Assembly (NCBI RefSeq): GCF_921293095.1
Contig: NC_060249.1
Span: 77,635,907 to 77,699,906, forward strand
Length of the DNA stretch: 64,000 bases
Source: Ischnura elegans
Taxonomy: Eukaryota > Arthropoda > Insecta > Odonata > Coenagrionidae
Direction of reading: 5' to 3'
A model generated the notes under the pieces. It had not been told where the DNA came from. It did no database searches and saw nothing but the letters and a program-made list of their open reading frames with translations. Below are positions 1 through 61,000 of this stretch, piece by piece. A program made the position numbers and the translations under genes. Position 1 is the stretch's first letter. Every line of letters starts with the position of its first letter.

Positions 1-571
1 TTTTAAACTCAAACAAACCATAATGGGTATGCCATTCCAGGGCGTACGAAAATTCCCCGCCAATTTTTAAGGATTTGATTTCACGAAATATTTATCTCAT
101 GCTCAAGAATCCATTCATATTGCTTCTCTAATGAGGCTGAAGGCAAAGAGGGAGGACTTTATTCATATAAATACAGCTCTCGTTAAGTTGAAATATCTCG
201 ATAGTCCTCAAATTTCTCGGGGAAGAAAGATGCCTTGGTAATTCAACTGGCTAAAGCATTTGACTGGAAATCGGGGGATCCGGGTTCGAATCCCAGTCAA
301 GGCAAATGATTTTTTCGTGGTGGATTTTTTGCACAATTTGTGCATTGCAGGTGATTCCGTAAAGATATTACCGTGACTAGTCCCAGTAAACTTAAATTGA
401 AATATCTTTTCATTCTGAGCATTTCCTTTGGCCATATTATTCCCCTAATGTCATGATCAGTTACTTGTGTCCTCTCTAGTGTATGATGCATTTTGTTTTT
501 ATACAAAAAATCAACATAAATTTTTATATGTACATATATGTCTCTAAACTTTTCAATATCATCTCATATAG
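1..571 (+). other. Last intron of the zyxin-family gene (3' part)
   Basis: The stretch before the LIM exon is intronic. It ends in a plausible acceptor (pyrimidine-rich tract, then AG at 570-571). Its only recognisable content is one solitary tRNA-derived SINE at 199-396. No coding exon is seen in the rest. Confidence 0.6.
199..396 (+). mobile_element. Solitary tRNA-derived SINE (family A)
   Basis: A 198-bp insertion lies between two copies of TTGAAATATCT (188-198 and 397-407), an 11-bp target-site duplication. Positions 232-303 fold like a tRNA: D-arm, anticodon arm and a T-arm with GGTTCGAATCC, closed by a GCCTTGG/CAAGGC acceptor stem. The family is the same as the units at 11376-13876 and 57863-58448, but this copy is diverged and has only about 200 bp, without the roughly 125-bp spacer seen in the tandem units. 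The 3' tail ends near the AGTAAACTT that matches GTATACTTT in the array. Confidence 0.85.
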
Positions 572-2710: not shown

Positions 2711-3537
2711 TGCAACGGCTATAGCTGGTATGCAGAAGGGAAGCATCGGCTCTAGCTGACGTCAGTTCATTTGTGTAGAAGAATCCACACTGGCTAGAGC
2801 CGACCTTTGGTTTTTTGGGCATGACAATGCTTGTTGTCTAGAGCCGCCAGTATTGGGAAAATTCATTTCATGGAGGAATTTAATTCGTTAAGGTAGGTCC
2901 ATTGGCGTAATGGCATTCCGACATGACATTCGTCATTGCCTATTTAGATACGAAAATGCGAGGCAGTGAAAATCATGCTATCAGCAACTGCATATTTGGC
3001 CTCTTCTTCTCACTATCATTTAATTTCATCTTACTATCCCATGCTGTACTGTCATTAATATGTTTAGATCAACTTCGATTTCCTCCATTTTTCGAACTTC
3101 CACAAGTATCGTCCCCAGTGCGTTCCCTAAAGAAGTAGGGTCAAGTAGGGTGACACTCCCATTAAACTACACAATCGTCAACAATGAACGCATCGGGACC
3201 ACAAATTTAGAGAATCCCTTCTCCAAGTGCCTCAATAGAAATGATTTTGTAACTAAAATGCTTGAATAGTGGCACAAGTTCAGTGAATATTTAGATTTCA
3301 TTTCGTTATGTATTAATAGTTCAGCTTAAGTAACTCAAACACGAACCCTGCCAATTTGAATTTGAGAGCATCCTAAATATCGGCTTTCAATTGTTTTGTT
3401 TTGATCCTCGCTCGTGCAGAGGGCGAAAAAATCGTTTCTCCTGCATTTCGTGATATGGGCGCATGCTGCTAGTTGCCGGTGTTAATAGTGATTAACCGTT
3501 AATATAGGACCCATAATCTTCTAGCTAGTTTTTAGTA
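2711..3537. other. PHB2 upstream region
   Basis: An 830-bp gap holding the presumed PHB2 promoter and 5' UTR. A palindromic TGACGTCA lies near 2758-2765. No TATA box or other gene can be supported. The short open frames here show no protein-like content. Confidence 0.4.
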
Positions 3538-6500
3538 ATGGCTCAAAGTAAGCTTAATGACCTGGCTGGAAAGTTGGGGAATACCCCTAAAGGAGTTGGT
3601 ACTGGGTTAAAGGTTCTAGCTGCCCTTGGTGTTGCTGCTTATGGTGCAAGTCAGGCAATGTACACAGGTAAAATGTTACATAAATGCAAACTGTGTTGCT
3701 CTATCAGTTTTATGGTATTGTTGCACAAGTGTTTCAATTCCTACATGTTCAATTACGGAATCTCTGTTCTTATCGTATGCGTGACGAAATCTTTTGTTGA
3801 TGTTGCTCAGTATGTCGCTGATATTTTACATCTCCTCATTAGTTGAAGGTGGTCACCGAGCTATCATCTTTAGTAGGTTAGGTGGTGTTCAGCCTTATGT
3901 ATATGCCGAAGGTCTTCATTTTCGTATCCCATGGCTGCAGTACCCCATCATTTATGATATAAGGTGTGTAAAACTGATAGCAATCAACTCTTATTTAGCT
4001 TGTCGTTTTTCTGTTTATTACTCTAAGTATTATTTATAGGTCGAGGCCGAGGAAGATCTCATCACCTACCGGAAGCAAGGACTTGCAAATGGTTAACATT
4101 TCACTTCGAGTTCTTTCTCGACCGGACGCGGATCAAATTCCCATTATGTACCGACAATTAGGCCTGGATTACGATGAGAAAGTGTTACCATCCATCTGCA
4201 ATGAAGTACTGAAGAGTGTGGTGGCGAAATTCAATGCATCGCAGCTTATTACTCAACGACAACAAGTTAGTATATAGCATCAAATTTTTCTAGTGTCTCT
4301 GTCACTTTAATTTTAAATACGACGGTGGTTATTGGTAGTTTTCATGTACCTAACTTGTTATCTAGTCGACAAGTTATACGCAAAGTCATTGGAATTCGAT
4401 ATTTGTTGGGACACTTGTTCTCCAAAAGAAAGTTATTGTCAAGCATAGTGTTGCTTTTATCAGTTTTACTGGTTTACGTAAAAAGTAAAGTTAATTGTTA
4501 CACTCTATTTACTTCTTCTTAGTCGTTTAACAGAGTAATCTTGATAAATTCGTTTAAGTATGTGCTACTAGTCAAATTTTCGTTTCAGGTTTCTTTGCTG
4601 GTTCGAAGAGAACTTACTGAGCGAGCCCGAGATTTCAACATGATTCTTGATGATGTATCAATTACAGAACTGAGTTTTGGAAAGGAGTATACCGCAGCTG
4701 TTGAAGCTAAGCAGGTGAGTATAGCTGTTAAATAGTGGTTAATGCGTGAGCCAGAGTGATAATATTTATTGGGTAACACATTACTCTCAGAATAGTCTTC
4801 TTCATCTATATGGCCTTTAATCAATAAATCTCATGCTTGTACTCGATCCAAACAGAAATTTTTACTTTTTTACAAGCTGAGCAAGTAGGATGGGATATGT
4901 TAAACTGAGGATAAATAATTATGAATTTTAGGAGGGTTGAGATCTTCTGATAGTTGCTTTTGAAAGGGATTCAAAATAATCCTGTGATAAGGATTTAAGC
5001 TAATCCTTCATAATTTGTTGGTTTTACAATGTGGAGATCATGGTTCAAATCCACGTTTTGAGCCATCAAATATTTTAATAAATGATTTTATAGAGAAATG
5101 GACATTATACATTGTACGGTGTCATCAATGAGCTTTGCGTTAATTTTTTCCAGAATTGGTGTCTGAAAGCATGTGGCTTAGGAACTACTTGAAGACGTCT
5201 GTCTTCTAAAATTTTGTCCTTGTAATGCTCTCATACAACCGGAAATTTTTAAAACTATAAGCCCCTTATCCTAGGAAAATTAATCATATCAGTTGCATTG
5301 TGGCAATGCACTAAAGACCCAATTGTGAATTTTACCCCATAATCGCCAAAGTATGCTTCAACCATGTCTCACCTAGAATGGAGTATATGTACACTCATCT
5401 GGACATCTGTGAAAACAGTGGACATATTGGGAATTGAAACTGCCTGAGGGCACAATGTTTTGGTGGTGTAGTAGGTAAGAATAATGGAGGTTCCACAGAT
5501 CAAGTCTTGGTGATGGATTCTTTTATACTGCACACTCATTGTGGACATTTTTCTGATCTTTAAACTTAGCAAAAGGTAGCATTAGGTCCAGAGGATATTG
5601 CATGGCTATTAAATTCTTAAGTGATAATTTGTTTGCTGAAATTCAACTCCTTTCTTGCATCGTCTAGCCCTGCTTCAGTGCCCCATTATATGCATTTCTG
5701 ATTCATCACGGCCTATTCCTCCTGAAGATTATTGGGAAAAATTAGCACTTGGGTCTATTGTGGGTTGTCGTAATCCGACGGAAAAGATTAATTACCCTGG
5801 TATTAGGGTTTTTAGAAGTTTTAAAAATCCCGTTTGTATGAGAGCATTACAAGGACAAAATTTTGTAAGACAGACTTCTAGTCCCCACTTTCAGATGCTG
5901 ATGAGCCATGCATTAATTCTTTCCGCCACTGTACATATTTATTTACGTGACTTGCCCATTTCTGCTTTTGTACACTGAATAGGCAAAAATTATGATGCTT
6001 TAATAGGCCAAGATTTTCTCTGTCTAATGGAGATAGTGGACTTTTAAGGGTGAGAAAAAGTCTAGGAAAATGGAAACATATATGTATCTAACTAATCATT
6101 TTGATTTATTTCTCCTTCATCTTAATTATATTAATTTTTTGGTGAAGTATAAGTAGTATGAGGAAAAAACTTAGGAATTCAATTGGACTCCCAAGTGTAG
6201 ATGACTATAGGAAAATCATGGTAAATTTGAACCTCGGGTTGTTGTTCCTTTCTCCATTTTGATTTTTGTACTGACATTGTTATAGCAATGCTCTTTAAAA
6301 CTTATCAAATATGGTTACTGATTGTCATTCTCCCAATTTAAAAAATATTTTTCTTTAATTTCTATCAAAGGACTCATTATTGTAGGAGATAATCTTTTTT
6401 CAATTTCCGAATGAATTTTATTGTTAATTTTTTTGAGTTAATTTTATATCTAATTCTACTGAAAATTTGATGTTTATTTTTTTCTATAGGTGGCTCAACA

Positions 6501-9500
6501 AGAGGCTCAACGTGCTGCCTTTGTGGTCGAACGAGCCAAGCAGGAGAGGCAACAAAAAATAGTCCAGGCTGAGGGAGAGGCTGAAGCAGCTAGAATGATA
6601 TCCTTTTCACACTCATGATTTATTTTATGTACAGTGAGTCCTCGTTTAACGTCACTTACCGTTCCTGAAATATGTGACGATAAACGAAATGACGTTAATC
6701 GAAGCATAATATCCCATAAGAAACAATGTAAAAAGTGAAAATCAGCTCCTAGACCTCACAATTCCTACGCGAAAAAAATGTTAGCGTATCATATCTGGGG
6801 CATTTTTTTACGGTGGGAATGCCAAACTATGGCATAAATACGAGTTCCTGTCTTCATCGACGACAATAGCAGCAGTGACGTAAATCCTCCTCCATTTTTG
6901 TACCTTCCCGCATTTTCTTTTCGGCTTCGCTATGGTGGTCGCCCGGGCGAGCGTCGCCTGGGCATCATCCAAGGTTCTTGGAGTTCAGTCTAAGAACCTT
7001 GGGCATCATCATCGCTAAAACATCGTCGCAGTTACAGGAACCAAAATTATTGTGAACTCGGAGAAAAAAGTGACGACAAAAACTCCGAGTTCTACACGGA
7101 AAAATGCCTTGAAATCACTTTTTAGGTTCCTGAAAACCATTATGTCAAGTTAAACCTTGCGCACCTACGCAAGAATACATTTTGCAGAAATTTTTGCTAA
7201 AACCGTAATCGCAATGAGGAACTTGCATGGGTCGTAGATTGCTCTAAAAACTATTTTGAATAAGTCAAATGGATACATTAGCTCGAAAAAATACCTTCAG
7301 TTTCTCCATTCAACATCAAAAGAAATAAAAAAAATTTCATTTAAAATCGAGAAAAATTTCTCTGAGCCGACCACTGCACGAAAACACCCGAGCGTTGCCG
7401 AGGCCAGGCTTGACGTCATAGGTGCCTAAACAACCGTAGGGAGTAGGGAAATACGCTGAGCGCATGGTGTAAAATTTGTTTTGAGGGAGTATTTAGCCGC
7501 TCATCGTCACTTTATTTTGGTCTGTTATTCTTGGGTAAGTTTTCCTATTGCTATTGTGCCTAGATTATTACTTGGGATATTAATAATGCGGCATCGGGAT
7601 GATGAAGTACAAGCGTTTCACTTCGTATGTTTTAGTGATCGGAAAAATGGATGATAACGTTGCCACTCGTTCGAATAGTACACCTGAAATTCATCAACAC
7701 CTACACAATACCCCGCAAGCCGCCTAAAAGGCATGTGGCATGGGGTGTTAGGACACCAGCCTTTTTTTAGGACATCAAAAATTGATGCCACGTCGACCCT
7801 CATGGAATTAGTTAAGACAAATTGCTATACGTCGGCGGCAAATCGAGTTGTAAAAGAAACTTGTAATACTGGAGGATAACGATCGTAAGCTGTGCTGTTG
7901 ACATTAGAGTAAGTTGTGCTGTTGAATTTGGCAACGCCGAATTAACGGAGAAGGTAGTCCTATCCGTCCTACAGTACGAATTCATAGCAAAACAGTCTGC
8001 ACACAATCCACATGTGAGATCGCGAATTGGTTCCGCTGCAAACACACACACAAGCTATAACCTATTTCAATAATATAGGTAAATCCATGAACAATATGCT
8101 CGCATATACCATAAAAATATAGTGGGAAATAGGCAAATACTCTTATCAAAAACTGGATGTCACTGTCACATTCATATATTCATCACGTACAACTTACAAT
8201 AACAGAACTCGTTATGATGCAAACAACTATTTATTCATTGATTGAAACCCTTAAATTAGCCGACACAGGTGACTTTTCTCAATATTCGTTGAAATAATGG
8301 AATAACAAACTTCACTCACAGTTTTTATTTCAATAGCGTGATTGTGAAATGTCATATCTACGGTGAACAACGGAGATTAGCACGCCACTGACAATTTTTA
8401 CACTACTGTTAGACATTTATCGATAGCATAATAGCACTTTTTACAATTCAATCACGATGGAACACTGATAACTCTTGGCTTGATTTTTCAACCTTGTCAA
8501 ACTTTTTGCATCACAACCACTGGCACTGTGATTATTAGCAGTAGCTTAACGGGAGATGTCACGTTGAAAATAACACTATTTGGGCACAAAAATGTTCCTA
8601 GATGTCTCCAATCAGCGAGCAAAAGTTGCATTGACTGGAATTCACCCCATAATACAAGTTCAGACAGTCCTAAACGACGAATTCTCCGGTACCTACGAAT
8701 AAACGGATGAAGCTGTTGTATATAAAAGCTAAGCGGGCATTAGTAGACATCAAAATCATTCTAATTACATACTTAAATGAATGATATGCCGTCAATAACA
8801 TCAACTAACAATAGGGAACTTGCATACATTTCAGATATAATCAATAACCCCAAAATTATATAAAAATATATGTTTGCTTACCTCGGTGAAAGTTTTTTTG
8901 TTATTTTATGAAGTGGTTTGCGATATTTAATGCATCAAAGTTCACGAGAATTTTCAAATGCAAGTGAGAAGCGAAAATGCCCGATGATTGGCTGGTAGAA
9001 AAGTGACGTCATAGTTCAGTACGAGGAGGCACGGCCATATTACTTGAATTGATTACATGCGATGGCGTGGTTATGATTCATTTATTGAAGTGCAGACGTA
9101 TCGGAGTTGTTCAGTGTGACTTCAGGGCTATTATTTGATCTATTTTCCCTCCATTGAAAGCGATAGATTGCGTAAAGATGAAGGAATACGGTTATTCCTA
9201 GTCTGATCCTAGCAAGCTTCCTGTTACTGATTCCATCATGATAACAGGGTATTTTAGTGAAACTGTAGACTTCGTCGGCGCGGAAAGTCGATGTCGAGAA
9301 ATGGAAAGGTAGCTGATGTGCATCTGAAATGTTTTATAGTTCATAAAAAAAGTGAGACTTGCGTATAATATTGGCGAAAGCGTATACTCATGTGAAATGT
9401 GTATTCTTTTGGCAGTCCGGTAGAGTCTTATGGTGAACTTATTTCCACCTCGAAGCTGTCGATGATACTTTCAACTTAAAAATACCTTGCCTGGAGGGCG

Positions 9501-12500
9501 ACAGGAAGCTCTGAGAAGCCAGACTATTAATTTTTCAATTTAGTAGCGATAATATAGACGAACTTCCAACACAATGTACCATCTTGTGACTCAAAACCCC
9601 GAAGCCACTTCCTATTCTACAGAAAGAATCGGTCAATCGCACTTCGATCAATATAATAAACACAACGTCTTCAGGTGTTAATAAGTTACTTTTGTAATGA
9701 AATCCTTCCTAAATTAGCATTAAAATGTGAATGTTTTCCAAACAGAGTCTTTAATACATTTTGGGAGCTTTTCTCACGATATATCTGAAACCTACTCTAA
9801 AGGGGGGAGCTAATCTTCATTGCGATCGGTTGTCACTTAAAAATTCCGTATCGGAAATCCTAGAGGGATGACCTTCGACGATGACCATGATCACCTGCAC
9901 TCTCACTATCACTAGAACCCGTGGTGAAAATATCATCCCAATCCTATTTCTATTTGGTTTTAACTGGGGAAAGAGCAAGATAGAACTGCACATTCTTTGG
10001 GCAACTTTGGGTTTGACTTTCCCTCAAACACCCCATTTCCCCTGTGGTGCACATCAGTTCTATCTTTATACGATGGCCTGACAACCTTTAAATGGATCCT
10101 TGGTTCATCCTGACAACCAACTAAATGGAAATTGCTGATCCACGCGTCTTCCTCTATCTCCACAGTTTCCAAATCAAGGGCCGCGGAACATTCCTCTTGT
10201 GACTCAACTTTTTCTGAAAAGCAAGCCGGCGTAGAATAAAACCAAAGAATGCTGCGATTCATTTTTTGTGACCACCTCTGGATTCCATTCTTTTTCCATC
10301 TAAAAATTCCTTTATCTTTCGGGGTAAACTATGGGACAAGATAATGTTTAAATATTTTCATTAATTTATAACAAAATAAAAGTTCTAAAAATACCCAAAA
10401 GCCATTTTATTAATCCGCACTGATGAGTGTAAATTAATGTGGAAGATGAATGCTGTAGACGTAGTGCAAGTTCATGAAATTGACAAAACGGCTAATTTTT
10501 CGGTGCGCGGAGTCATTTATTGCACAGGCCGTGTCTTATACATTTTTCAATTTTTTTGTAATAAAATAAATCAGAATTTAGGATAAAATTTCCTTTAAAA
10601 TGACGTATAGTTCATTATTATAGCATGCAGTAAAGCCAGGATATAAATTTGCAAAGTACAGCGGCTCATCATTTTGACGCCGACAGTAGAAGAAAACGCT
10701 GTCTTCTTGGCTGGCACTCGAATGCATGAGGATCAACGTTGCTCTATATTTTCATATTTCCTCCCTTGATTTTAAACATCATGGAATTTTCTATGTCCTT
10801 CCGTAACTAAAAATTGAACAAGTGCCATAAATAATTTGAGTCCATCGTAACCATCGAGAAACACCTATCTCGATTTTTGTTGTAAATTTGAGTTTTTATT
10901 CTACGGCGGCCGAATTATCGAAAAATCTCAGTTTCAAGTTATTCAGTCAATGAAATATGGAAATATTATTTATATTAAAGTTATCTTCGCTCACATAGCA
11001 CACGGGTTTATCATTCTGTTTATTATACTCTTATTTTTCCGTAACGCTCATCCCGACAGACGGCATACATTGAGGCTTTTCTTCTAATTTCCTCCGTGGG
11101 AATGCAGACGAAATTTTTTTCTGGGGTGTTATTGCACAGAGGAACAATGCACCACTTGTAATTTTTCCTTACTTCACCCATGTTCTCCTTTAAACGCAAC
11201 GTGGCTCTTCCAAACCTGCAGTTTGGGCTTGGATCTTGGACTCCTACTGAACTATGACGTCACGGCCAAATATTAGTGGGGGCGGTATTTTTTAGCCCGC
11301 GAAACTCGGGAGACTTTTGGGAGTCATTTTCTAGTGTATAAACTGAATTTTAAGCGGAGAAAAGTATATTGCGGTGCGAAAAATCCACAGAGGAAAAATC
11401 ATTCGCCTTGACCGGGATTCGAACCCGGATCCCTCGATTTCCGGCCGAGTGCTTTAGCCAGTTAAGCTACCGAGGCGTCATTCTCCCCTGTGGAAATTTG
11501 TGGACTTTACCGGACAAGGTGGTATGGACTGCTGAGCATATTATGCGGCTAGCAGTCCAGGTCGTGCGCATGGCGCCACAGCCGGAGAACAAAGCCCGAA
11601 CTTTGAACACTAGAGGTGTTCGCTCTGGACTTATGAAAGTATACCGGGACTAGCCACGGTGATAACTTTTTACGGAGTCACCCGCAATGCACAAATAGTG
11701 CGAAAAATCCACAGAGGAAAAATCATTCGCCTTGACCGGGATTCGAACCCGGATCCCTCGATTTCCGGCCGAGTGCTTTAGCCAGTTAAGCTACCGAGGC
11801 GTCATTCTCCCCTGTGGAAATTTGTGGACTTTACCGGACAAGGTGGTATGGACTGCTGAGCATATTATGCGGCTAGCAGTCCAGGTCGTGCGCATGGCGC
11901 CACAGCCGGAGAACAAAGCCCGAACTTTGAACACTAGAGGTGTTCGCTCTGGACTTATGAAAGTATACCGGGACTAGCCACGGTGATAACTTTTTACGGA
12001 GTCACCCGCAATGCACAAATAGTGCGAAAAATCCACAGAGGAAAAATCATTCGCCTTGACCGGGATTCGAACCCGGATCCCTCGATTTCCGGCCGAGTGC
12101 TTTAGCCAGTTAAGCTACCGAGGCGTCATTCTCCCCTGTGGAAATTTGTGGACTTTACCGGACAAGGTGGTATGGACTGCTGAGCATATTATGCGGCTAG
12201 CAGTCCAGGTCGTGCGCATGGCGCCACAGCCGGAGAACAAAGCCCGAACTTTGAACACTAGAGGTGTTCGCTCTGGACTTATGAAAGTATACCGGGACTA
12301 GCCACGGTGATAACTTTTTACGGAGTCACCCGCAATGCACAAATAGTGCGAAAAATCCACAGAGGAAAAATCATTCGCCTTGACCGGGATTCGAACCCGG
12401 ATCCCTCGATTTCCGGCCGAGTGCTTTAGCCAGTTAAGCTACCGAGGCGTCATTCTCCCCTGTGGAAATTTGTGGACTTTACCGGACAAGGTGGTATGGA

Positions 12501-15500
12501 CTGCTGAGCATATTATGCGGCTAGCAGTCCAGGTCGTGCGCATGGCGCCACAGCCGGAGAACAAAGCCCGAACTTTGAACACTAGAGGTGTTCGCTCTGG
12601 ACTTATGAAAGTATACCGGGACTAGCCACGGTGATAACTTTTTACGGAGTCACCCGCAATGCACAAATAGTGCGAAAAATCCACAGAGGAAAAATCATTC
12701 GCCTTGACCGGGATTCGAACCCGGATCCCTCGATTTCCGGCCGAGTGCTTTAGCCAGTTAAGCTACCGAGGCGTCATTCTCCCCTGTGGAAATTTGTGGA
12801 CTTTACCGGACAAGGTGGTATGGACTGCTGAGCATATTATGCGGCTAGCAGTCCAGGTCGTGCGCATGGCGCCACAGCCGGAGAACAAAGCCCGAACTTT
12901 GAACACTAGAGGTGTTCGCTCTGGACTTATGAAAGTATACCGGGACTAGCCACGGTGATAACTTTTTACGGAGTCACCCGCAATGCACAAATAGTGCGAA
13001 AAATCCACAGAGGAAAAATCATTCGCCTTGACCGGGATTCGAACCCGGATCCCTCGATTTCCGGCCGAGTGCTTTAGCCAGTTAAGCTACCGAGGCGTCA
13101 TTCTCCCCTGTGGAAATTTGTGGACTTTACCGGACAAGGTGGTATGGACTGCTGAGCATATTATGCGGCTAGCAGTCCAGGTCGTGCGCATGGCGCCACA
13201 GCCGGAGAACAAAGCCCGAACTTTGAACACTAGAGGTGTTCGCTCTGGACTTATGAAAGTATACCGGGACTAGCCACGGTGATAACTTTTTACGGAGTCA
13301 CCCGCAATGCACAAATAGTGCGAAAAAAAAAAAAAAAAAAAATCCGGTCCGGTAAAGTCCACAAATTTCCACAGGGGAGAATGACGCCTCGGTAGCTTAA
13401 CTGGCTAAAGCACTCGGCCGGAAATCGAGGGATCCGGGTTCGAATCCCGGTCAAGGCGAATGATTTTTCCTCTGTGGATTTTTCGCACTATTTGTGCATT
13501 GCGGGTGACTCCGTAAAAAGTTATCACCGTGGCTAGTCCCGGTATACTTTCATAAGTCCAGAGCGAACACCTCTAGTGTTCAAAGTTCGGGCTTTGTTCT
13601 CCGGCTGTGGCGCCATGCGCACGACCTGGACTGCTAGCCGCATAATATGCTCAGCAGTCCATACCACCTTGTCCGGTAAAGTCCACAAATTTCCACAGGG
13701 GAGAATGACGCCTCGGTAGCTTAACTGGCTAAAGCACTCGGCCGGAAATCGAGGGATCCGGGTTCGAATCCCGGTCAAGGCGAATGATTTTTCCTCTGTG
13801 GATTTTTCGCACTATTTGTGCATTGCGGGTGACTCCGTAAAAAGTTATCACCGTGGCTAGTCCCGGTATACTTTCATATATTGCGGTACTAAGTGTTTAC
13901 TGTAGTATATCAGCATACTGTTTATAAAAAGTATGCAATTTCCCTATTAACGTATCCCCCTTCCAATGGTCGTGGCTCAGACTCCTACAACGATGTTATT
14001 TAGGTATTATAAAGTTTTTGGTTTAACTGCTCCAGTTTTATATTTTATGCCCTTACTCAGATATTAATATTATAAATAATGCAAAATATGAGGGCTTCCA
14101 AGTCTCTATCGTCGGATATTTATCTTTAAATATAAAATAATCAACACGTCTAACAAATGAAGCTCTCACAACTGCTGGCAACTATTACAAACAATCACAA
14201 CAACAGCTTCGCGTGATGTTTAGGCACCTTTGACGTCATCGAGGCTTCGTCGGCAGTGGCTTGGGGGGTGAGGGAGTTTTTCCCGCGCTTTAAAATTCGT
14301 TATATTTATCATTAAATATCTCGCAAAGGAAAACTCAGATATACATGCGGTTTTCTTTGTTGTATTCAGAAAATAATTTTCTGTCTGCCTGTGAAATAAA
14401 AAAAAATCACGCAAGTTCCCCATTATCAATAAACAACACTGTTTTACACTTTGTATAGACTGTCTATATTACCGCCCACAAAACGAACAACCTGCTACGC
14501 CTGCCGCTTCGCCTTTTTTTCGCGCGAAATTTGAAAGACGTGACGTTATCGCGAAGCGTAGGTGCGATAAACGAATGACGGTCTCAAAATTTTCGTGACG
14601 TTATCGCGAAATGATGTTAAACTGGGTGACGTAGAACGAGGACTCAATGTACATCTAATTCAATATATGCTGATGACCACCTCGGGTTATTTTACTAGCA
14701 ATCTAAAAGGGGAATGACCATCACATGGGGTGTTTAATGGGCACTCAGATGGAACTAGACCATACTACATATAAAATGAATAGGTAATGAGGATTTGAAT
14801 ACTCTGTTGTGGGAGGATTTTAGCATGCCTTTTTCACGGGTCAGAAAAATTTCTGCTTGAAATAATTGTTGGACCCCAACTCTGGTGTTAATAACGTTAT
14901 ATGTATAATGAATTCCTCTTAACTGTCATATCACAAATAAAAATTTAATTCACAGCCATAGTTATAAATCTTAAGTTATGCAAACAGGTTGGTTATTTTA
15001 TTTTTTGGACTAAATTTTGTAAGTCCTTTTCATAATATTCTTTGGCATTTTTCTGGCATCACATTTGCTACCACTTTTGAAGCAAGGAATTTAATAGAAA
15101 ACTCATCCTTACAATTTTTGTTTAGATCTTAGTAATAATGAGTTTTTGTTGCAATCAAATGTATAGCATTTCTATGCTGTTCTTTTACATCTGAAGTCAG
15201 TGTTTTGAGACCTATTTTGCCCTGGAAAGTGGCATTATAAGGAGGCATAAAAACCATGTGAGTCTGTGACATTATATGTACATGATTTTTTTCGAGAGGC
15301 ACTTAAATCTCTTGGTAAAAAGGTTTATATCTTAAGAAGTATGCAGTTTTGGTTACCTGAGTTATATATCGTAGTGAAACTTGGGGCTCTGGAGCATTTC
15401 CACAGTTGGACTATTTGCTCTCTAGTAGTCCTTAGAGGAAATTAAACATCTGTCTTCAATAATAATATACTTATTCAATGGTACATTTTATAAAGGTATG

Positions 15501-20304: not shown

Positions 20305-23300
20305 CTCGCGGCTGAGCTAAAAGCCACCGAGTGCGTCCACCGGGTTGCGGATGGTGGGTCGACCTTTAGATATAGAGGTTAGCTGCGAGATAAGCGAGTT
20401 CTCTCGTCGAATAAGCAGTCGTGGACAAAAAGCGGCGGTATTCTGAGGGGGTATTGGGCTACCCTTGGGTAAGGTAGGCAATTTAAAAGATACCAAAACC
20501 TGTGAAGATACCGTGACTTGGCGACTGGGGGCCGCCAATAATTATGCCTCCCATCACCCAGGGGAGAGGGCAGCAGCTCTTCTTCACATGTGCGAAGGTG
20601 GAGACCATACTGGTCGGTATAGCGACACACATTCCACTACGGGCGTGGTAACATTTACTTTAACGGCTGTAGTACTGCGATGTGGAAGGCAAGGGGAAAC
20701 CACCACATTATCATCCCGAGGAGTCACAGCTACTCCACTCAATTAATATAATGACATGATGGAATTCTCTCGGGTAATATATTCCGGAGGTAAACTAGTC
20801 CCCCATTCGGATCTCCGGGCGGGGACTACTCGAGAGGGTACATCGGTCAAACGAGATAGAATGTTACGGATAGGAACAATCGAACGTCAGATCACTTAGT
20901 ACCTGCGGTAAGCTAGAGAACTTGAAGGTGGAGATGCGAAGAATGAACCTCGATGTATTAGGCATCAGCGAAATGAAGTGGCCCCAGGAAGGAGACTTTT
21001 GGAGTGGAAGCTACAGAATGATACACACGGGATCGCTAAATGGTAATGCTGGAGTAGGCATAATGCTTAGAAAGAGCACCGGGATGCGTGTTGAAAGCTA
21101 CCTGCAGTTTAATGAAAGGATAGTAATGGTGAAGATAGATACTAAACCCGTAGCTACTGTAGTGGTACAGGTTTACATGCCTACGTCAGATTATGAAGAC
21201 GAAGAAGTAGAAGATGTCTACCAAGATATAGCGGAAGTTATCAAGCAGATAAGAGGGGAAGAAAATCTTATTATTTTAGGGGACTGGAACGCTGTCGTCG
21301 GCGAAGGTCAAGACGGAATAATAACTGGGAAATATGGGTTGGGTAACCGAAATGAAAGAGGAGAAAGGCTACTTGAATTCTGCACGGAGCACAGGCTAGT
21401 GGTTGCCAACACTTTATTCAAAAATCCCCTGCGAAAAAGATACACGTGGAAGATGCCAGGAGACCGTAGAAGATTCCAAATCGACTACATTCTAGTGAAA
21501 CAAAGATTCAGGAACCAGGTGAAGGACTGCAAAAGCTATCCAGGGGCAGATATCGATAGTGACCACAACCTAGTTATGATGAAATGCCACTTTAAATTTA
21601 AAAAGTTGAAGAAAGCCGTGAAAAACATACGGCAGGTTGAAAAATTGAGGGAGGTTCAGCATCAACTGGCTTTTAAAGAGGCTGTAGAAAATAAAATAGG
21701 GGAGGATCCGACAAACAAACCAATGGAAGAGAGTTGGAAAACCATTAGAAGTGGTCTGCAGGCGGCAGCTGAGGAAGTTCTTGGTAAAAGAAGAGTTGTT
21801 ATGAAAAAACCATGGATCACGCAGGAAGTATTAGATCTCATTGAAGAAAGAAGAAAATACAAGGCTGCGAAAACAGAGGAAGGACAGAATCGTTACAAGA
21901 GGATAAGGAACGAAATATGTCGTAAAGCGCGGAAGGCTAGAGAAACATGGATGAAAAGCATTTGCGAAGACGTGCAAAACAATCTTAAACATGGAAAAGT
22001 AGAGGCCGCTTATAGGATAGTGAGGAACCACTTTAAGGAAAGGGGCGTAAGATGTAATACCCTTAGGGATAAAAACGGAGAACTATTGATTGAAAACGAA
22101 GAAAAAGGGAAGAGATGGAAGGAATATCTGGAAGATTTGTACAAAGGAAGTCGCCTCAGAACCAATGCTATCGAAAACGAGAGGGAAGTGGATGCCGATG
22201 ACATGGGAGCCCCAATATTAAGATCGGAATTTGATGCGGCTGTACGAGACCTCAGGATAAATAAAGCGTCTGGCATTGATGACATTCCTGCAGAACTAAT
22301 TAAAAATTCAGGAGAGAAGACGTTGAACCAGCTATACAAAATCATTAGTGAAATGTATACGACAGGTGAGATACCAAAGGATTTCGAGAGGAACATTATA
22401 ATCCCTATTCCTAAGAAGAAACGAGCGGAGAAGTGCGAAGATTTTAGGACCATAAGCCTAACTACACATGCATCAAAGATACTGACAAGGATCATCTATA
22501 GAAGAATAGAACGAGAAGCAGAAGAGTACTTGGATGAGGACCAATTTGGATTCAGAAAAAACAAAGGCACAAGGGAAGCAATATTGGCCCTAAGACTGCT
22601 CATAGAAAAGAGAATGGAAAAGAACAAGCCAACATTCGTTGCGTTTGTGGACTTAGAGAAAGCATTTGATAACGTGGATTGGAGCACAATGCTTGGAATC
22701 CTAAAGGAAATTGGGGTTCTTTATAATGACAGAAGAATCATCCACAGTTTATACAAAAACCAAGTAGCCGTGATGAAATCAGGGCCCAGCTGTGAAGAAG
22801 CAAGAATTAAGAAAGGAGTGCGACAAGGCTGTACATTGTCACCCGTAATTTCAACGTTTACATTGAAAAAGCCATTAAGGAAATCAAAGAAAAGGCATTG
22901 GGAGTGAATATCCATGGAGAAAAAATAAGCATGCTAAGATTTGCCGATGACATAGCCGTTATAGCAGAAACAGAGAAGGATTTGAAAAATATTCTGGTTA
23001 ATATGGGTAGGGTAATGAGTAGATATCAACTGAAAATAAGCACGAAGAAAACCAAGATCTTAGTATGCAGCACACGAGAAGAAGTGAAGACCAACATTAA
23101 AATAGGGAGGCAAAAACTAATAGAGGTGGATGAATTCTGTTATTTGGGAAGCAAGATAACTAGTGACGGGAGAAGCAAGAAAGAAATTATCACCAGAATA
23201 GCCCAGGCGAAGAGAGCATTCCACCAAAAGAGAGACCTGCTTACAGCGGGAAACTTAAATATGGAAGTAAAGAAACAATTTATAAGAACCTACATCTGGA

Positions 23301-23726
23301 GTATGCTCCTATATGGAAGTGACGCATGGACAATGACCGCAGCGGAGAAAGCAAGAATAGAGGCCTTTGAAATGTGGTGCTACAGAAGAATGATGAAAAT
23401 CAAATGGATCGACCGAGTTAGTAACGAGGAAGTCCTAAGAAGGGTAGGAGAGAAGAGAAGCTTCATGAAAACCTTAATAAGAAGACGGAACAACCTTATA
23501 GGCCACATCTTGAGACATGATGGCCTGATGAAGACAATCGTCGAAGGACAGGTGGAAGGCAAGAATGGAAAAGGAAGACCTCGAACAAAATATATGGAAC
23601 AAGTAAAGAGAGATGTGAAAGAGAAGAAATACGTAGGAGTGAAAAGATTAGCTGATAGGAGAACTGAGTGGAGAGCTGCGTCAAACCAATCCTAGGATTG
23701 TTGACCAGTGATGATGATGATGATGA
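20305..23726 (+). mobile_element. LINE inserted in the minus-strand LINE
   Basis: 3,422 bp between two copies of TAGATAGAAGA (20294-20304 and 23727-23737). The 3' end is a short GAT microsatellite rather than poly-A. The element carries endonuclease and reverse transcriptase frames (20922-23695). The 5' end, from about 20305, is a GC-richer leader. The clade is close to that of its host LINE but the sequence is clearly different. Confidence 0.9.
20900..23695 (+). pseudogene. LINE endonuclease-reverse transcriptase (near intact)
   Basis: Frame 1 (20922-22907) encodes an APE-type endonuclease (LDVLGISEMKW, LIILGDWNAVVG, IDSDHNLVMMK) followed by reverse transcriptase (NKASGIDDIPAELIKNSG, FVDLEKAFDNVDW, KGVRQGCTLSP). 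A frameshift of one step just after LSP moves the rest, FNVYIEKAIKEI and the catalytic FADDIAV, into the second frame (22898-23695), which ends with the LLYGSDAWTM and KGRPRTKYMEQVKRD C-terminal region. Upstream of 20922 the frame can be read back through NVRSLSTCGKLENLK to a second one-base disruption near 20880. Two small lesions therefore separate it from an intact frame, which indicates a fairly young copy. Confidence 0.88.
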
Positions 23727-30824: not shown

Positions 30825-30865
30825 CTCCTGGGGGGGCCGCGTTCGGCGATTAACTCGGCCCCACC

Positions 30866-43139: not shown

Positions 43140-43440
43140 ATTGATTTCCTATAGGGTTTTAAGAAATACTATTGGAATTATGTAAATTCCTACAGGAAAT
43201 GGAATTTCCTATAGGAATCACAATGGTTTGTGTAGGAACAATTAAGATTTCTATAGAAACCTATATTGGTCCTATGGGAACCTTAATTGTTCCTATAGGA
43301 ACCATTGTGATTCCTATAGGAAATTCTATTTCCTATAGGGTTTTAAGAAATACTATAGGAATCACAATGGTTCCTATAGGAACAATTAAGGTTCCTATAG
43401 GAACCTATTTTGGTCCTATAGGAACCTATATGGAAGGAGG
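43140..43440. repeat. Array of CCTATAGG palindromes
   Basis: About 300 bp made of the 12-base palindrome TTCCTATAGGAA and near variants, spaced by 8-12 bases such as CCATTGTGA and ACAATTAAGG. Eight exact CCTATAGG cores are seen. Blocks also repeat at a larger scale: AGGGTTTTAAGAAATACTAT occurs twice, and GGAATCACAATGGTT recurs on both strands. A 95-codon open frame across it is a by-product of the repeat. Confidence 0.85.
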
Positions 43441-43880: not shown

Positions 43881-44309
43881 TCAGATTGTTGGTTGACAAC
43901 AGTTTCGCTGGCTATCCTGCCGGTTTCTGCCTCGCTTATATACTGTAGGCTGGATGGGAGCTGCACTGTGATTGGCTGTCTGACTGGGTGCTTCTCTCTG
44001 GTTGGCTCTCTCTTTGATCACTCTTTTCCAGGCGCTGTGAAGGAAGTATCCATCTTCTCTATTGAAATTCAAAGGTGTTTTTTGAATTTCTATTGCTTCC
44101 CTGATTTGTCTAGGGAAATATCGGCACTCCTTAACTAAAAGTTTCTTCTCCTCAAATTTAATGTCATGGCCGGGTTCCGACCATGCATGTTCGGCGATGG
44201 CAGAGAGTTGAAACTGCTTGTTCTTGGTCGCCCTCTGATGTTCTTTAATCCTCACATGCATGGAGCGGCAAGTTTCCCCTATGTAGGATTTTCCGCAGGA
44301 GCAGGGCAC
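43881..44309 (-). pseudogene. Penelope GIY-YIG endonuclease part
   Basis: Reads MPCSCGKSYIGETCRSMHVR, IKEHQRATKNKQF and SAIAEHAWSEPGHDIKF. The SYIGET block with the following R and H residues is the GIY-YIG nuclease core that Penelope-like elements carry after the reverse transcriptase, and CSCG is the zinc-binding linker. The frame runs into the inverted terminal repeat. Confidence 0.85.
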
Positions 44310-44322
44310 CTTGTATACCCCC

Positions 44323-46096: not shown

Positions 46097-49000
46097 GCCT
46101 TTTGGTCAGCAGTCATTCAAAGCTAAAAAATACTCAACATCATAATACCAGCATAATGGGACTACCCTCTCCTTACATTCAACCTCAGATGAAGCAAAAT
46201 TTCGCTACTCAAGTATGTGCTCAAGCAAGGGTTGAACATGGAAAACCTTTGCTTTCATCAACTTCCAGTAACTACAAGTCACGTTCAAGATCTCCTATCA
46301 ACTGCTTGACTGCTCATGTCAAAGGTACTGAAAGTGCTTATAAATTTTCTATATATATTTCAAGCATGGGTTTACTAGAGAAAAGGTTAGCGGGTTCACG
46401 TATCAGCCTTCAATTTTGTATTCACTCTTTTGCCATGGAGTCAAATATCGAAAAGTGGTACTCCCCTCACAAGTGCCTCCAAAAAAAAGTCATGGAGCTT
46501 TCTTTTGGCTATGACCCTCTCTTTTTCATATTTCCTCTACTGGGTCTTGAGCTTGATCGGACTCCAGCCTTTTTTCTTGGCCAAGGGGCGAAGATAATCT
46601 TCCTTATGTGTAATATTCCAAACCCTGCCGCGTGAACGGCGGTGAAATATACAAGAATTGCCATGAGAAAAAATTCCCCTGGACCGGGAATCGAACCACG
46701 AACACCTAGTGCCATGAGCCTCGGTATAATTGCCATGGGAATTAAAGAACCTGGGTAGCGTAGTGGTCTGCGCATTGGCCCGGAAAGCCAAAGGTCCGTG
46801 GTTCGATTCCCGGTCCAGGGGAATTTTTTCTCATGGCAATTCTTGTATATTTCACCGCCGTTCACGCGGCAGGGTTTGGAATATTACACATACCGCTTTG
46901 CGCGGCTTTAGCGCAGGTTTGAGGCTCTCAACCGGTTGTGGCTTCTTGGAAGTCCTTTCTCCCTCGCGTTGCCATCCTTGATGGACCGCGAGGGCCTAAC
47001 ACCTAGTGCCATGAGCCTCGGTATAATTGCCATGGGAATTAAAGAACCTGGGTAGCGTAGTGGTCTGCGCATTGGCCCGGAAAGCCAAAGGTCCGTGGTT
47101 CGATTCCCGGTCCAGGGGAATTTTTTCTCATGGCAATTCTTGTATAAATCTTCCTTATGTCTCTCTCTCCGGACGGAAAGGAGCAATGAAGTGCTGGAGA
47201 TGGTGGGAGAGGAGAGGCAGCTTCTAGATGAGATATGGAGGACACAGAAAGTATGGATGGAAGGAGTACTCAGTGGGGAGGGGTTGTTGAAAATGGTATC
47301 AGAGGGTAGAATATTAAGCAAGCGAGGGAGAGGAGCGAGGGGGGTTTGGGGGTTAAACCCCCCCCCAGAGCTCAGAGAAATGCTTAAGTTTAATCCATTT
47401 TACTTAATTGGATTGATATTACCGATAGAATAGTGTAAGGATTAATATAATATCCCTCAGAAAGCCGTAAAACTCACCATTTTGAACCATTTATCTTAAA
47501 ATTCCGCAATTTATTAATCTTGCACCTACTTATGCCTGCTTATCCTGGTGGGTATTCCACACCCCAAACACCCCGGTATTAGTTGCATATAAGCCCCCCC
47601 CAGCCTTAATTCCTGGCTGCACCCCTGATGGTGAGCAGTTATAACCTTTCCTTGTTCATGACATTGGGAAAAATTACATTTTCTCATACATGTTTTCTAC
47701 TAAATACATTCTGAGGCTTGGTTATAAATTATTCACATCAACATGAGTAAACCTAGAAATACCCTTGTTTCCCCTGCTGTTGTGGGAACCCACTTTTGAA
47801 ACATCAATTTTTTTTGCTGCTTAATTTTTTCCTTCTCCTGAGCAAGAAACTGCCTCGTAGACGTTTGTCTCAATCACCATAATTGTAATTTCATCATCAA
47901 AAAATAGCTCAAAATATGCCAAGGAATCATCTATAGAGCGTTCCACATTTAGTTGACAGTATGGGCTCTTATGGAGAATCGTTTCCCATGTTAATCTCCA
48001 TAAGGCCAGGAGTAATGTTGTCAATAACAGCACGAAAATTAATGTTGCGTTATGCACTGATTAAAAATTGCACTCTAATGTAAAAAGAGATGCTGCATTC
48101 ATTGGTGCCAGTAGTTTTTCGATAAAAATTATAACAAAAGCTATAAAAAACATTTTCTTAAATTTCCGTCAGAAACGTGTATTTTTTTACTTTATCTTCT
48201 TCTCGCAGTTTCTGTCTGACCGTTGTCTGTATTGGATTGAATCTTCTGCACAAAATTCTTCACACTATTTTCTCTTTGAAAGTCTTCACCAATCGCACAA
48301 ATATTGAGTTAAAATGTTGTTATGCCGACGTAACACCCTTTAGGACAAGAAAATTTTTATTTTTGCAAGGTAAAAAGTAGTCGCTTACTAACTTACGTTT
48401 CTTACGTCGTAGGTCCCTATATCCTGTGTATCAAATGTGAAGAAAACTACAAAGTTATTTTTGGTGAAAATATTATTAACTTACATCAATTCTGAAGCGA
48501 GTTACAATGTTTTGATCTTAAGAAAAAATATTACGGCGCCGCTGGGCCGGGCTTCTTGCTTTTTCTTGCGCGAAGAGGGAAAATTCTCGGGCGGAAAAGG
48601 AGTTTTTTGTCAATGCATACTATGAAATATATTTATCTATTCGTTTGATATCCTAAACAGAGAATACTCATACGTCGTAACAGCAGTGTTTTTATCTGAA
48701 TATATTGATACACGAAAGTAAGCAAGCGGCTTGGAAATAAGCTGCTTTCGCCTTGGGTGTTTCGGTCCCATCGCGGAAACCAAGAAAGAGAATATCTCAT
48801 AATCTGTGCGCAACACTACCCCATCCAGTGCACGCCTTTTACAAAAGGGGGATTGGGTATTTTCTGAGTTCCTTTCATAGGGTACCATATAACCTGCACC
48901 AGAATCGACCCTAGCCGAAGGTGCCGTGGGAAGAATTTACGAAGGCGTTCAGTTTGTCATTGCATTTTTTTGGAGTAAACAAGTGTTGTGTGGTCTATTG

Positions 49001-55000: not shown

Positions 55001-58000
55001 AAAAATTAGCAGTAAATGTTATTCAACTCATTCATAAAGAAGAGCAAAGTCCATTTTTATTGAAATGCACATCGATATAAATATATTTTTGATGCTAATG
55101 TTTTAAAAAAATTTACGAATATAGTAAAGATGGCTGGATTTTTCAGTAGGGCTTTAAATTTAGCAGCCGGCACTCAAGGTGTTAAGGGTCACGGTTCGTT
55201 TCAAGCATCAAGCGATTTGGAGCGTCACCGTTCTAAAGACCGGTCCGCTTCATTCATTCGCTTTGAATTGCTTCAAGCACTTCTGAAAAAAACCTACCGG
55301 CATTTCAGAACAGCGGGCATTTCAACTTGGGTTGCTAGGGAGTTGTTGAAAGACATTTGTTTATAAACATTTGTCATCAATCAGACACCTCGATGTTCAT
55401 CTTCAATCGCACGAAAATGGAAGATTTTTTGCAATTGCAAACAAATATTTTTGATAGTGAATCAGATACAAGTGATAACGTAAGTACAAGTGAGAGTAAG
55501 GAGGGATTGGAAAATGTCAATGAGGTGGATTTACAAGTAATTTATGCCATTATAATGTTGGGGGAGACGAGGGGAAATCTTGTATTGAGGCCACGGATTC
55601 TCTCTTACGTGAAGAATGTGGTAGGGAATTACAATGCACAAACATTCTAAAGTCATTTCAAGTATTGTCATTGATATGTCTGATCTTATTTAAAATATTG
55701 TGTTGAAATAATAAATCAATTTTGGCGCGGGCAACGCAGCTTCCGTCCATGATGCGAGGGTGTTAAAAAATTCACGGCTCTCTTACTTTTTGAGCCATCA
55801 AGAAGAATTCTTTCCAAATGATACCCACATCATTGGAGACTCTGCTTATGGAATCAATGAACATTTTATGCTACCATTCAGAGATAATGGGCATCTGACT
55901 TTGCATCAGAAAAACTTCAATGCCAAATTTTCGAAGGCTCGAAAAGTAATTGAAAGGCCTTTTGGATTGCTCAAAAGGCGATTCAGAAGCCGGAGAAACA
56001 AATTGAAATTAGTTGATATGGAAAAAATACCTGAGTTCATCTTGGCTTGTTGTGCACTCCATAATATTTGTGTAGAAATAAGAAATGAAGCGCCTGATGT
56101 TGCTCCACTTGACGTGGAAAGAGTACTGATTAACTTTAATGAAAACGTAACTAGGATAAGAGGGGTGAATAAATGCAGAGAATCATGAATGATTCACCTC
56201 AGAATTAATTACTTTTATATGTAAGAAATATATTACTTTGTACTTATATATGTAAGAAATTAAACACATTACATATAGTAGTAGTTTTGGCGAATACTAT
56301 TTTAATACTACTTTAATACATTACATATAATTTTAATATATGTAATAACAAATTAAAAGAACCTATCCTAAAAATGCGTTAAACCTCTTCTTATTAATTT
56401 TTTATCAGTTAAAATAAAAATATTATGATCATCCAATTAAAACATAATGTCACTGATTTTTCGCTATTTTTTTTCAACAAATCTTTTGCTGTTCTTTTTA
56501 ATTCCATTTTCTCCTCGAGCCTTTGCCGCTTTTCTTCATCTAATTTTTTTCCCTCTCCTCCTTCGCCTTTATACTTTCTTCCCCCTCTTTTTCATGCTCC
56601 CGCTTGTTATTTCCCCTTTCCTGGTTGATTTTTTTTTAATGAACTCCTCGATTATTACCTCCACTCGCCTCTTCTTTGGAATTGCTAGGGAAAAATGAAT
56701 GGATAGTGATTACCACAGGAAATAATGTTACTAGGGACGTCTAAGCAAATTAATTCAATAAATTAAAGCATCGTCACAGTTAACACATTATTAAAAGGAA
56801 ACATCATCAATCACTATAGCACTAAAGTCATTAGCATTGCTTAAAATATTTTATTGTTTGTATTCACTCACTTTCTGCAGATTGTGAAGGCCCTGCACGG
56901 CATGGCAGCTCAGGGCCATCGTTCGTGGCTATGGCCGGTGGATTTACCCATGATTTCTTTCCAAAAATATCATCTATAATCTACAAATTTAGAAATAAAA
57001 TTTTTATACTTCTTTCATCTGGAGACTTAATTACTACAATTTAAAAAAATATTAATCATAAAATGAATAAATACCTTGTTATAGTACCATGCTACTGCAT
57101 TGTTGCCTGTTTTTCTTATATGTACCTCCTTTTCCTTTTATTGCCAAATATGTTTTTTGAGCTCCCTGGTTTTAGTTTGGCTCTGTTTTGAGGTAGGGAC
57201 AATTTTTATATTAATGCCCGCTATTATGCCTGCAATTTCCTCCCATTCTTTTGCATGCTGTTTCTTCCGGAGGGAAAACTCATGCTCATTTTCTTTGCAT
57301 GTCTCCATTAATAGCAACACCCCATCCTGCGGCCAAATATAACCTTTATCACCATTCATCTCTGTAGGAGGAAATGAATAAGTGGAATTAAATGCTATCT
57401 AAGTGTTGTATTATTAGATTCAAAATTCACGTTAATAGTTACTGTAAGGATATTATCTGTTGAATTACCTCCTTCCTCTTCTATTTGAGGAATTTCATCT
57501 GCTTCAGTCTCCCTTGCTTTGACCTTCTGATTAACAAAGTATCATAAGTAATCAGAATCTTGCAAAAATTAAGCCAAGTGATAACTTTTTTCATTTTACA
57601 ACGAACAAACTGGTTTAGATTTAAAAAATAAAATGTGTAGGTAATTACGCACTATGCAAATTCATGATGGATTCTTTCTGCCTTTCTTTTTGTATTGTAT
57701 TTCGAAAAACTAAGCTTTCAAGGCTTGATTGTACTCCTCTCCTGAAAGTAATAATTTAGTCTTCCTTTAACAGATGGGCACGCACATTTAATTCTATTTG
57801 TCTCTCCATTCCTTTCAATTATTAATCAAAACCTTTCTCAGCTACAAAGGTTTAAGTCTTCTTTAAAGTATACCGGGACTAGCCGTGGTGGTAACTTTTA
57901 CGGGAGTCACCCGCAATGCACAATCGTGCGAAAGATCCACAGAGAAAAAATCATTCGCCTTGACCGGGATTCGAACCCGGATCCCCCGATTTCCGGTCGA

Positions 58001-61000
58001 GTGCTTTAGCCAATTAAGCTACCGAGGTGTCATTCTTCCCTGTGGATATTTTCGGACACTACCTGACAAGATGTTGCTGGACTGCTGAGCATATGATGCC
58101 ACAAGCAGTCCAAATCGTGTGCTTGCTGCATCGTACGCTTGTGGCATCATACCGAGGCGTCATTCTTCCCTGTGGATATTTTCGGACACTACCTGACAAG
58201 ATGTTGCAGGACTGCTGAGCATATGATGCCACAAGCAGTCCAAATCGTGCGCTTGCTGCATCGTATGCTTGTGGCATCATATGCTCAGCAGTCCAGCAAC
58301 ATCTTGTCAGGTAGTGTCCGAAAATATCCACAGGGAAGAATGACGCCTCGGTAGCTTAACTGGCTAAAGCACTCGACCGGAAATCGGGGGATCCGGGTTC
58401 GAATCCCGGTCAAGGCGAATGATTTTTTCTCTGTGGATCTTTCGCACGTTAAGTCTTCTATTCCCCAGATTTATTTATTAATCTCACCAGTGTATAGTAA
58501 CCATGATAATATCATAGGAAATTGGTGCATTTTCTCGAAAGACTGCAAACAATGTATCCCATTTGCTCCAAACACTTCACGCAAATGATGGGGTGTTTGG
58601 AGCTATCAAACTTGGTAATTTATGCCCCCACATTATGAGCTTCAGAGTCCTCTAAAGCGTGAAGCGGACCGGCCTGAGGCGCTTGAAGTGTGAAACGGAC
58701 TGCGACCAAGGCTTAATTAATTCTAGTTGTTTTCAGAGTTTAAAGGATTTATTTTGGATACACAAATTTTTAACTACATTCTAACTGTTGGCAAAATTTT
58801 ATAAATTGTGTTTTAAACGCAGCTAATAATTAAATATATGTAAATTGTACGTATTTAATCACTGAGTGAGTAGTGAAGGATGGGTTACCTATCATCAAGT
58901 GGAGATATGGAAAACCATTTGACAATGAAGGAAAATATTTAAAATTTGGATTATTTAATTTGTGGACCTATGAGAGCTGGGTTTAACTGAAGTTTATATC
59001 CCTTCTTTTATAGAATCCTGATGATATGAGGCTGTATTGTGAGTGCTGTGATTTGTCTTTCACTTCTGATCTACATGCTCAACAGCATTACCGGGGCAGA
59101 AATCATCAAAGGGTCTTGAATGGTTTAGAGCCCTTAAAGTCAGGGTACTTCAATAAGCTGACATGCAAATGGCAGAGATTGTGAGTATTGTTTCTGACAA
59201 TATAGGTGATTTAAGGTGACACGTGTCATTTTGTGGTATTAGTCTTCTATTATCTTTAATTTTGGTACTTACATCTTATACCTTCTTGGCTAGTGGTAAG
59301 TGGACTAATTCACATCATGGCTACACAAAAGAAGCATTTTAAGTCCTTTCGGTTGGATTGTAAATGAAAAAAAAATAAGGCCTATATCCAAGGAGAAATC
59401 TCAAAATTGGCATTTATTGTAGTGTATTCAGGAGAATATTTGCATTTGTTGACACTATAATAAAAATAAATGCTTTCTTTCCATGCCATTTGAATACATA
59501 TGGATTATTTTGCTTTCAAATGATTTTTTCACACATTGGGACTTCATTGACATTCACTCATGAGTATTTTATGAAAGGAAAATTGAAAAAGTCATAATTG
59601 CATATATAATTTAAAATCTACTTTAAATAGTATTTTCCAATATTGAATCATGTGATAGCCCATACTAGTTTATGAAACATTTACATATGTACTTTTAATT
59701 CAATTTCATAAAAAAATTACGATCAGTCAGATTAAGTGAGAAAATAGTAAATGATTAAAAGTTAACCTTCACCAATGGAAATAAAAGCAACCTACAACTT
59801 GATGTGCTTTGAATTTAAAATTCCCAGTAATTCTTATTTTAGAAATTTTAGTATGTATGCTTTTGAACAAGAGCTCAATTCAACATTTACTAGAGCTGCA
59901 CATGCTGAAATACATATTTGTAATTTTAAAGTTGAAGCTATCTTTCAGTCTTTAAGGCTTCAGCATCATCAAAATTTTAAGTCAGTGCACTTTACCTATA
60001 TTGAAATGATTGGATCATTTTTATTTTAGCCCTCCTACAGAAGTAGTAAATGGTGTTGCTGTCAGTCCCTGTGAATCCATGAGTTCCCATGATTCACCTA
60101 GTACAAACCAAGATGTGAACTATTCAGGGATTTCCTCTGAAAGAGGAGAGGACCAAAAGTCAAGGAGGGGCAGGTAGGATGTATTAAATAGTAGCTCTCA
60201 GAGCTTATTTTCGTAGATTATATATGGATGTCATGGCCATGAGTACAGTTTTATGGGGGCCAGAGGAAGCCTAGATCCTCTTACTAACTTAAATGGTAAT
60301 TTTCCAAAAAAATATATGAAAATTGTAGATTCAAGGACAATGAAAATAGAAACATCCAAATGTTAAATAAATTCTAGTCTTAGGTAGTACTTAAGGTGCT
60401 ATTTTCAGAGGCTAATTCAAAAAAATTTCCTGGAACACTTCCCAATGGAATACTTCCCGTTTCACTGGGGAGTGTTCCATAGCCCCTAAACCTCTTGCAG
60501 CATTGCTGGCTCTTCCAGCGTAAAAAACTGAACTTCACCCACTTACGTAGCGTGGTTGCTAGGAATATGTTCTGAAAACATTTTTTTTATCATCGCTGCA
60601 ATGTGATGAAAATATGATGCCTGCAGTAATGAGAGACTTTGGAGCTGATTTCTTAAAATTATTGAAATTTAAGCTTTATTTTTGGGTATACATACATTCA
60701 AATATAATGTAGTTTTTTATGAATATTAATTTTTTTACCGTTCACATTATGTATCCATTTAGCTACTTAATTTAGATTGTATTCGGCAAATATACATGCC
60801 AGTATAGTTTCAGTAAGGAATAATTACAAAACAAAAGAGCTTATTCAGTTTAGCCCTTTCCTGGCGGTGCCTACAATTGGAAAATGTTTTCTGTGCTGCA
60901 AAGTTGTAAGAGAATATTTTCAACCTCTCTGTGCGAAGTTCTTTTTTGGGGTGGAGTTACCCTATTATTTTTGTCCCTCAGATTTTGGACCCAACTCGAT

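Follow-up and report, generated by a model that had tools for sequence, protein, structure and literature searches.

The locus analysed here raises the question of how a palindromic array of identical short repeats came to lie within a single target-site duplication (TSD). The array is found in a 64,000-nt stretch of the Ischnura elegans genome (assembly GCF_921293095.1, contig NC_060249.1, positions 77,635,907–77,699,906), the whole of which is called the window below, and it is built from a 324-bp unit carrying a tRNA-like domain (family 1). The evidence makes it very likely that the array arose in one retrotransposition event, by twin priming of the kind carried out by Penelope-like elements (PLEs), and on balance favours a 324-nt RNA circle as the template.

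The first arm has a period of 324 bp (6.0 copies, 100% match), and the second, corresponding to 1.64 units, is inverted and 100% identical to the first-arm unit (Table 1). The tRNA-like part lies on the minus strand in the first arm and on the plus strand in the second, and ARAGORN detected eight copies of it, six minus (the first at 11403–11477, the last at 13023–13097) and two plus. An original prediction, made from the letters alone, had described identical units running six in one direction and two in the other, joined by a 20-A run and bounded by one 11-bp duplication, and each of these features was borne out; the array is also where it had been placed (11376..13876), with limits that were 2 bp off at each end. 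As read from the sequence, the A20 run (13323–13342) continues the A5 of the unit itself, which may have been lengthened by slippage on the U5 of the RNA. The array is confirmed as real, with the number of units as read from the assembly.

Genome searches covered 1.72 Gb in 110 contigs. When the window flanks were joined with the TSD present once (411 nt, junction at base 211) and used as a query, 40 of 2179 candidates were scored and 40 matches listed. At least 39 of these are copies of the invaded repeat without the insertion, 97–99% identical from base 1 to at least base 271 and spanning the junction, while one further match covers all 411 bases at 86%. The empty site of the window array is therefore directly visible, and it follows from the matches across the junction that the array was inserted into a dispersed repeat, of which 11 bp were duplicated.

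A search with the unit itself (3229 candidates, 40 scored, 167 matches) gave copy counts that are lower bounds, and 38 family 1 loci, namely the window array and the 37 best-matching loci, were taken as the sample; the fetched loci are probably young, because the best matches were chosen. The array had been regarded as unusual, but it is far from singular, as 26 of the 38 loci are palindromic and 12 have a single arm. All palindromes have the tRNA-sense 3' ends outward, and in 26/26 one outer end lies at about unit position 258 (site B) and the other at about 324 (site A); the inner ends are scattered. Their TSDs are 11–16 bp long and different at each locus. True flank pairs have 11–16 bp in common in 25 of these loci and 7 bp in one (stricter search), compared with a mean of 5.5 bp and a maximum of 10 bp among 650 mismatched pairs, so the TSDs are not due to chance. 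The A+T content is 69% in the TSDs, 64% in the flanks and 60% in the window, and no clear target motif was found. For the insertion at L028, an intact empty site is present in L022 (385/413 identical, 93%). A satellite or foldback DNA transposon was rejected, because the outer ends (258 vs 324) are not inverted copies of each other and because the empty sites and the TSD show insertion.

Of the 12 loci with a single arm, six have B as their outer end, five have A and one has neither. TSDs are less distinct in this group: they measure 9–12 bp in L013, L021, L025, L034 and L041, and L023 has one of 18 bp where the flank is repetitive. L013 and L021, apparently duplicates of a single insertion, retain at the far side a remnant that ends in CTTTCATA. 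Family 1 arms reach 14.9 direct units in one arm, and overlaps are present at some inner junctions. Frequently the complementary DNA (cDNA) arms end at the U5 run that follows the tRNA-like part (unit position 245–251), as in the window, L012, L018, L038, L039 and L042, and the A20 run of the window sits where the inner arms of other loci stop. In L033 the arms are separated by 251 bp of unrelated sequence (6912–7162), perhaps captured DNA or a later insertion. The L031 palindrome is interrupted at a TA beside start site B by what appeared to be an internal region; this proved to be a nested Tigger/pogo-like transposon (2912–5170; 544-aa open frame; DDE_1 and CENP-B_N domains).

Aligning all units for common variants, a check that had been suggested with the original prediction, gave a marked pattern. 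Homogeneity was counted with 6 nt at the arm ends and indels dropped, at sites covered at least three times per locus. In six loci, variants absent from the other 37 loci fill all units of both arms: positions 43 and 84 in the window array (7/7 units), and private variants in L012 (13/13), L019 (12/12), L033 (16/16), L036 (3/3, two sites) and L040 (4/4). Of the 40 well-covered variants, 14 are common to all copies of their locus and 25 are restricted to one copy; the remaining one, in L017, is in between. In the long arrays of L012, L019 and L033 (~13–16 units), no more than two differences confined to one unit are found outside the arm ends. As exact patterns, the window haplotype has 7/7 and the L033 haplotype 15/15 of its genome matches inside its own array. 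Exact-pattern genome searches of this assembly found no long donor array with the window, L012, L019 or L033 haplotype, and one short, re-entrant template is therefore the simplest source of the copies.

Two fixed start sites are also a feature of PLEs. A purified PLE protein (anole) cuts both strands and extends them, starting at two sites within the RNA between which the genomic tail lies; two start sites delimiting a tail are a PLE signature, the tail being called unique to PLEs by the authors, and multimeric transcripts were proposed as templates (PMC11167929). In vitro, the authors observed no difference between the strands in the site used (PMC11167929). Passages of PMC3846280 describe pseudo-long terminal repeats (pLTRs), an inverted pLTR, TSDs and an optional 31-bp tail. 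In I. elegans, a search for the GIY-YIG domain (150 of 2199 candidates scored) gave 149 matches, and at least 16 close minus/plus pairs were counted among those listed. Out of 20 PLE loci, tails were looked for in 13 inverted loci of two families; L050, L054 and L057 (no inverted repeat found), L046, L047 and L059 (short or low-identity inverted repeats) and L064 (same place as L063) were omitted. A tail of ~32 nt is present at exactly one end in 11 of the 13 (28–33 positions matching), and the opposite end matches at the chance level of 13–17 positions. Candidate TSDs of these 11 loci are 11–14 bp long, and ambiguous in L061. L050 encodes both RVT_1 (reverse transcriptase, RT) and GIY-YIG domains. 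Compared with the 20 PLE loci, the 324-bp unit gave chance-level matches of 12–17 nt, plus a nested copy in L053; the tail pattern with an altered flanking base gave 15 candidate matches. The window also carries a Penelope-like RT open reading frame (ORF; RVT_1; 43881–45321, minus strand), near the family 2 element described next and followed by a shorter ORF that is GIY-YIG-like by eye and has no Pfam match. A minisatellite with a period of ~21 bp (43251–43431) adjoins these ORFs.

The rule of two ends extends to a second tRNA-bearing family (family 2), which has a period of 297 and resembles family 1 only along ~40 nt in the tRNA part. Its loci were selected as minus/plus pairs in the genome matches. 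In this family 38 nt separate the A site from the B site, and one A and one B end are present in 5/5 palindromic loci (the window copy, with a 14-bp TSD, AATCTTCCTTATGT, and L066–L069); in L068 the B end was set from the TSD position, the alignment running beyond it. An RNA helix uniting the two start sites was considered and set aside: it is supported in family 2 (8.9 expected pairs, 0/86 control positions as high) and unsupported in family 1 (0.34 expected pairs, 29/95 as high).

The tRNA-like domain of the family 1 unit has the anticodon GGA and no long variable arm (ARAGORN, Rfam), and the unit folds better than shuffled sequences (z −4.4). A U5 run follows the tRNA-like part in family 1 and a U6 run in family 2. 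The unit contains no ORF of 150 aa or more and no RT or GIY-YIG ORF of its own, PLE ORFs being located elsewhere, and there is no A-rich tail at the outer ends, which are CTTTCATA and CGCAC. MicroRNA-family matches were dismissed, being below gathering scores and mostly on inverted repeats. The unit had been called a short interspersed element (SINE). Its tRNA-like part agrees with this, but the U5/U6 run, the lack of an A-rich tail and ends that follow the Penelope rule do not, and to judge from its sequence the assignment appears doubtful. In its behaviour the unit is akin to a Penelope passenger; it is similar to retrozymes too, yet no ribozyme, their defining feature, was found in it.

The following course of events would account for these observations. 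A non-autonomous, tRNA-bearing 324-nt element would be integrated by the machinery of a PLE, whose protein presumably acts in trans. Its GIY-YIG endonuclease would cut the two strands of the target at staggered points 11 bp apart, and each freed 3' end would prime reverse transcription at its own fixed internal RNA site, B (258) or A (324), the 66 nt between them corresponding to a PLE-style tail. Each cDNA would then go round a single 324-nt sequence again and again, the template being most probably a circular RNA, and so build arms of 6.03 and 1.64 units; the two cDNA ends would meet at the A20 tract and be joined, leaving a palindrome inside one TSD. The broader proposal, of a new mobile RNA in which ribozyme-free, tRNA-bearing circles are used by a Penelope dimer with a fixed site for each strand and rolling-circle reverse transcription on both, is put forward tentatively.

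Several observations weigh against this account. No PLE with the family 1 end sequence was found, including among the 20 PLE loci, and two inverted PLE loci (L049 and L062) are tail-less at both ends. The flanks of the single-arm loci L024, L029 and L032 have just 6 bp in common, and in the flank comparison of the 12 loci no common stretch of at least 6 bp was found in L011, L022 and L044. In L017 the variant at position 218 occurs in 2/4 units and is differently placed in the two arms, a pattern that a uniform template would not predict unless this CpG site mutated twice. The L012 variant is also present at two other places and the L019 variant, a CpG transition, at 11, as isolated single matches. 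Rfam (E≤5) gave no hammerhead or other ribozyme in the unit, and a motif scan of both strands turned up neither an exact hammerhead core with GAAA after it nor, when one mismatch was allowed, any convincing core. A scan of 14 PLE loci likewise gave no ribozyme, so that nothing is known that would make the circle.

PLE twin priming could instead have used a linear multimeric transcript of an existing homogeneous tandem array, without a circle. This overlaps with the preferred account, because the high confidence expressed above covers twin priming as such, that in the circle alone being lower. Multimeric templates are what the PLE authors proposed (PMC11167929), direct multimers of up to 14.9 units per arm exist in the genome, and L017, where the base at one site alternates in both arms, would fit such a transcript. 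A donor array was nevertheless not found in this assembly for the exact window or L033 patterns, the L012 and L019 variants appear elsewhere just as isolated single matches, and only 1/40 well-covered variants is neither in one nor in all units; a linear source is considered unlikely. The original prediction had left open whether a multimeric RNA was inserted at once or a dimer insertion grew later by unequal exchange or slippage. The former is supported for a multimer-like RNA by the one TSD, the empty sites and the all-unit variants, and growth is disfavoured. Tandem arrays and inverted arms can convert each other, and later growth, including conversion between arms, would explain why the units are identical. 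Six loci have private variants throughout both arms, other variants are nearly always in a single unit, and L012, L019 and L033 show very few single-unit differences, which makes such growth most improbable.

A SINE multimer driven by a long interspersed element (LINE), inserted by ordinary target priming with twin priming in the L1 manner, would account for the tRNA-like part, the TSDs, the inversions and the overlaps found at some of the inner junctions, and the window does contain LINE-type ORFs. In L1 twin priming the internal point of inversion varies. That both outer ends are fixed here in 26/26 loci and lack an A-rich tail, and that the U5 run after the tRNA-like part would stop RNA polymerase III, leaves very little room for it. 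The same anatomy with a different TSD at 26 loci, together with the empty sites, makes an assembly artefact scarcely credible.

PLEs of the Penelope/Poseidon type, with a GIY-YIG endonuclease, are like family 1 in having an inverted terminal copy, an optional tail at one end, TSDs, tandem copies and two RT start sites (passages of PMC3846280; PMC11167929). The present unit differs in having a tRNA-like domain and no RT/endonuclease ORF, and in its tail of 66 nt (family 1) or 38 nt (family 2) vs 30–40 nt published. Short non-autonomous Penelope elements of butterflies are mentioned, without detail of tRNA or tandem form, in passages of PMC6685494, and titles, abstract beginnings and passages of the openly licensed literature yielded no PLE-borne tRNA or SINE-like tandem element. 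Metazoan (non-LTR) retrozymes, according to passages of PMC7229834, have similar units (~170–400 nt), genomic multimers and TSDs of more than 4 bp, but carry a type I hammerhead where the unit here has a tRNA-like domain; a circular RNA template was proposed, with PLEs suggested as mobilisers, and the word 'inverted' is absent from the main text. tRNA-derived SINEs are likewise short and dispersed, with a tRNA-like part and TSDs; the present unit differs in being multimeric and palindromic, with PLE-type ends, an internal U5/U6 run and no A-rich 3' end. Sm-alpha-type hammerhead repeats are satellite-like units with hints of mobility. The same is described for the Schistosoma W elements, but both are hammerhead-linked and no two-site end rule is described for them in passages of PMC8490949.

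How both ends of a PLE insertion are completed is an unsettled question, and the palindromic copies bear on it, as their strands use different sites in 26/26 cases, which is stricter than the in vitro result (PMC11167929). Genetically, the arrays are evidence that one short template was copied repeatedly, and they link retrozyme-like tandem repeats to a PLE mechanism, earlier a suggestion (in passages of PMC7229834). As the form found here has a tRNA-like domain and no hammerhead, one must ask how its template is made.

Table 1. Family 1 and family 2 features of the window (window coordinates).
Feature	Positions	Strand	Remarks
Left TSD TATATTGCGGT	11365..11375	.	last 2 bp common with arm
Arm putatively primed at B, 6.03 identical 324-bp units	11374..13327	-	outer end at unit position 258 (TTTTTCGCAC), without tail
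Six 75-nt tRNA-like sequences (anticodon GGA) at 324-bp intervals	11403..13097	-	ARAGORN; Rfam tRNA, 55 bits each
Inner junction, A20 + TCCG filler	13323..13346	.	
Arm putatively primed at A, 1.64 units	13347..13878	+	outer end at unit position 324 (CTTTCATA)
tRNA-like copy 7	13385..13459	+	ARAGORN
tRNA-like copy 8	13709..13783	+	ARAGORN
66-nt 'tail' (part of the unit from start site B to start site A)	13813..13878	+	at A outer end only
Right TSD TATATTGCGGT	13877..13887	.	
Old partial family 1 copy, 83% identical, unit positions 126-319	203..393	+	
Family 2 copy	46596..47160	.	arms 46605-46703 (-), 46701-47146 (+)
Older, rearranged family 1 copy	57852..58459	.	arms 57865-58255 (-, two pieces), 58266-58447 (+)

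The older family 1 copy listed last in Table 1 ends at unit positions 320 and 258, and its TSD, read by eye, is TTAAGTCTTCT (57852–57862 and 58449–58459). Other mobile elements are present in the window. LINE-type ORFs are located at 20874–23695 (plus strand), the first with endonuclease and RT domains and the second judged by eye. A Gypsy-like long terminal repeat (LTR) retrotransposon with long open frames lies at 26652–31786 (minus strand), with pol domains identified by Pfam and gag by eye.

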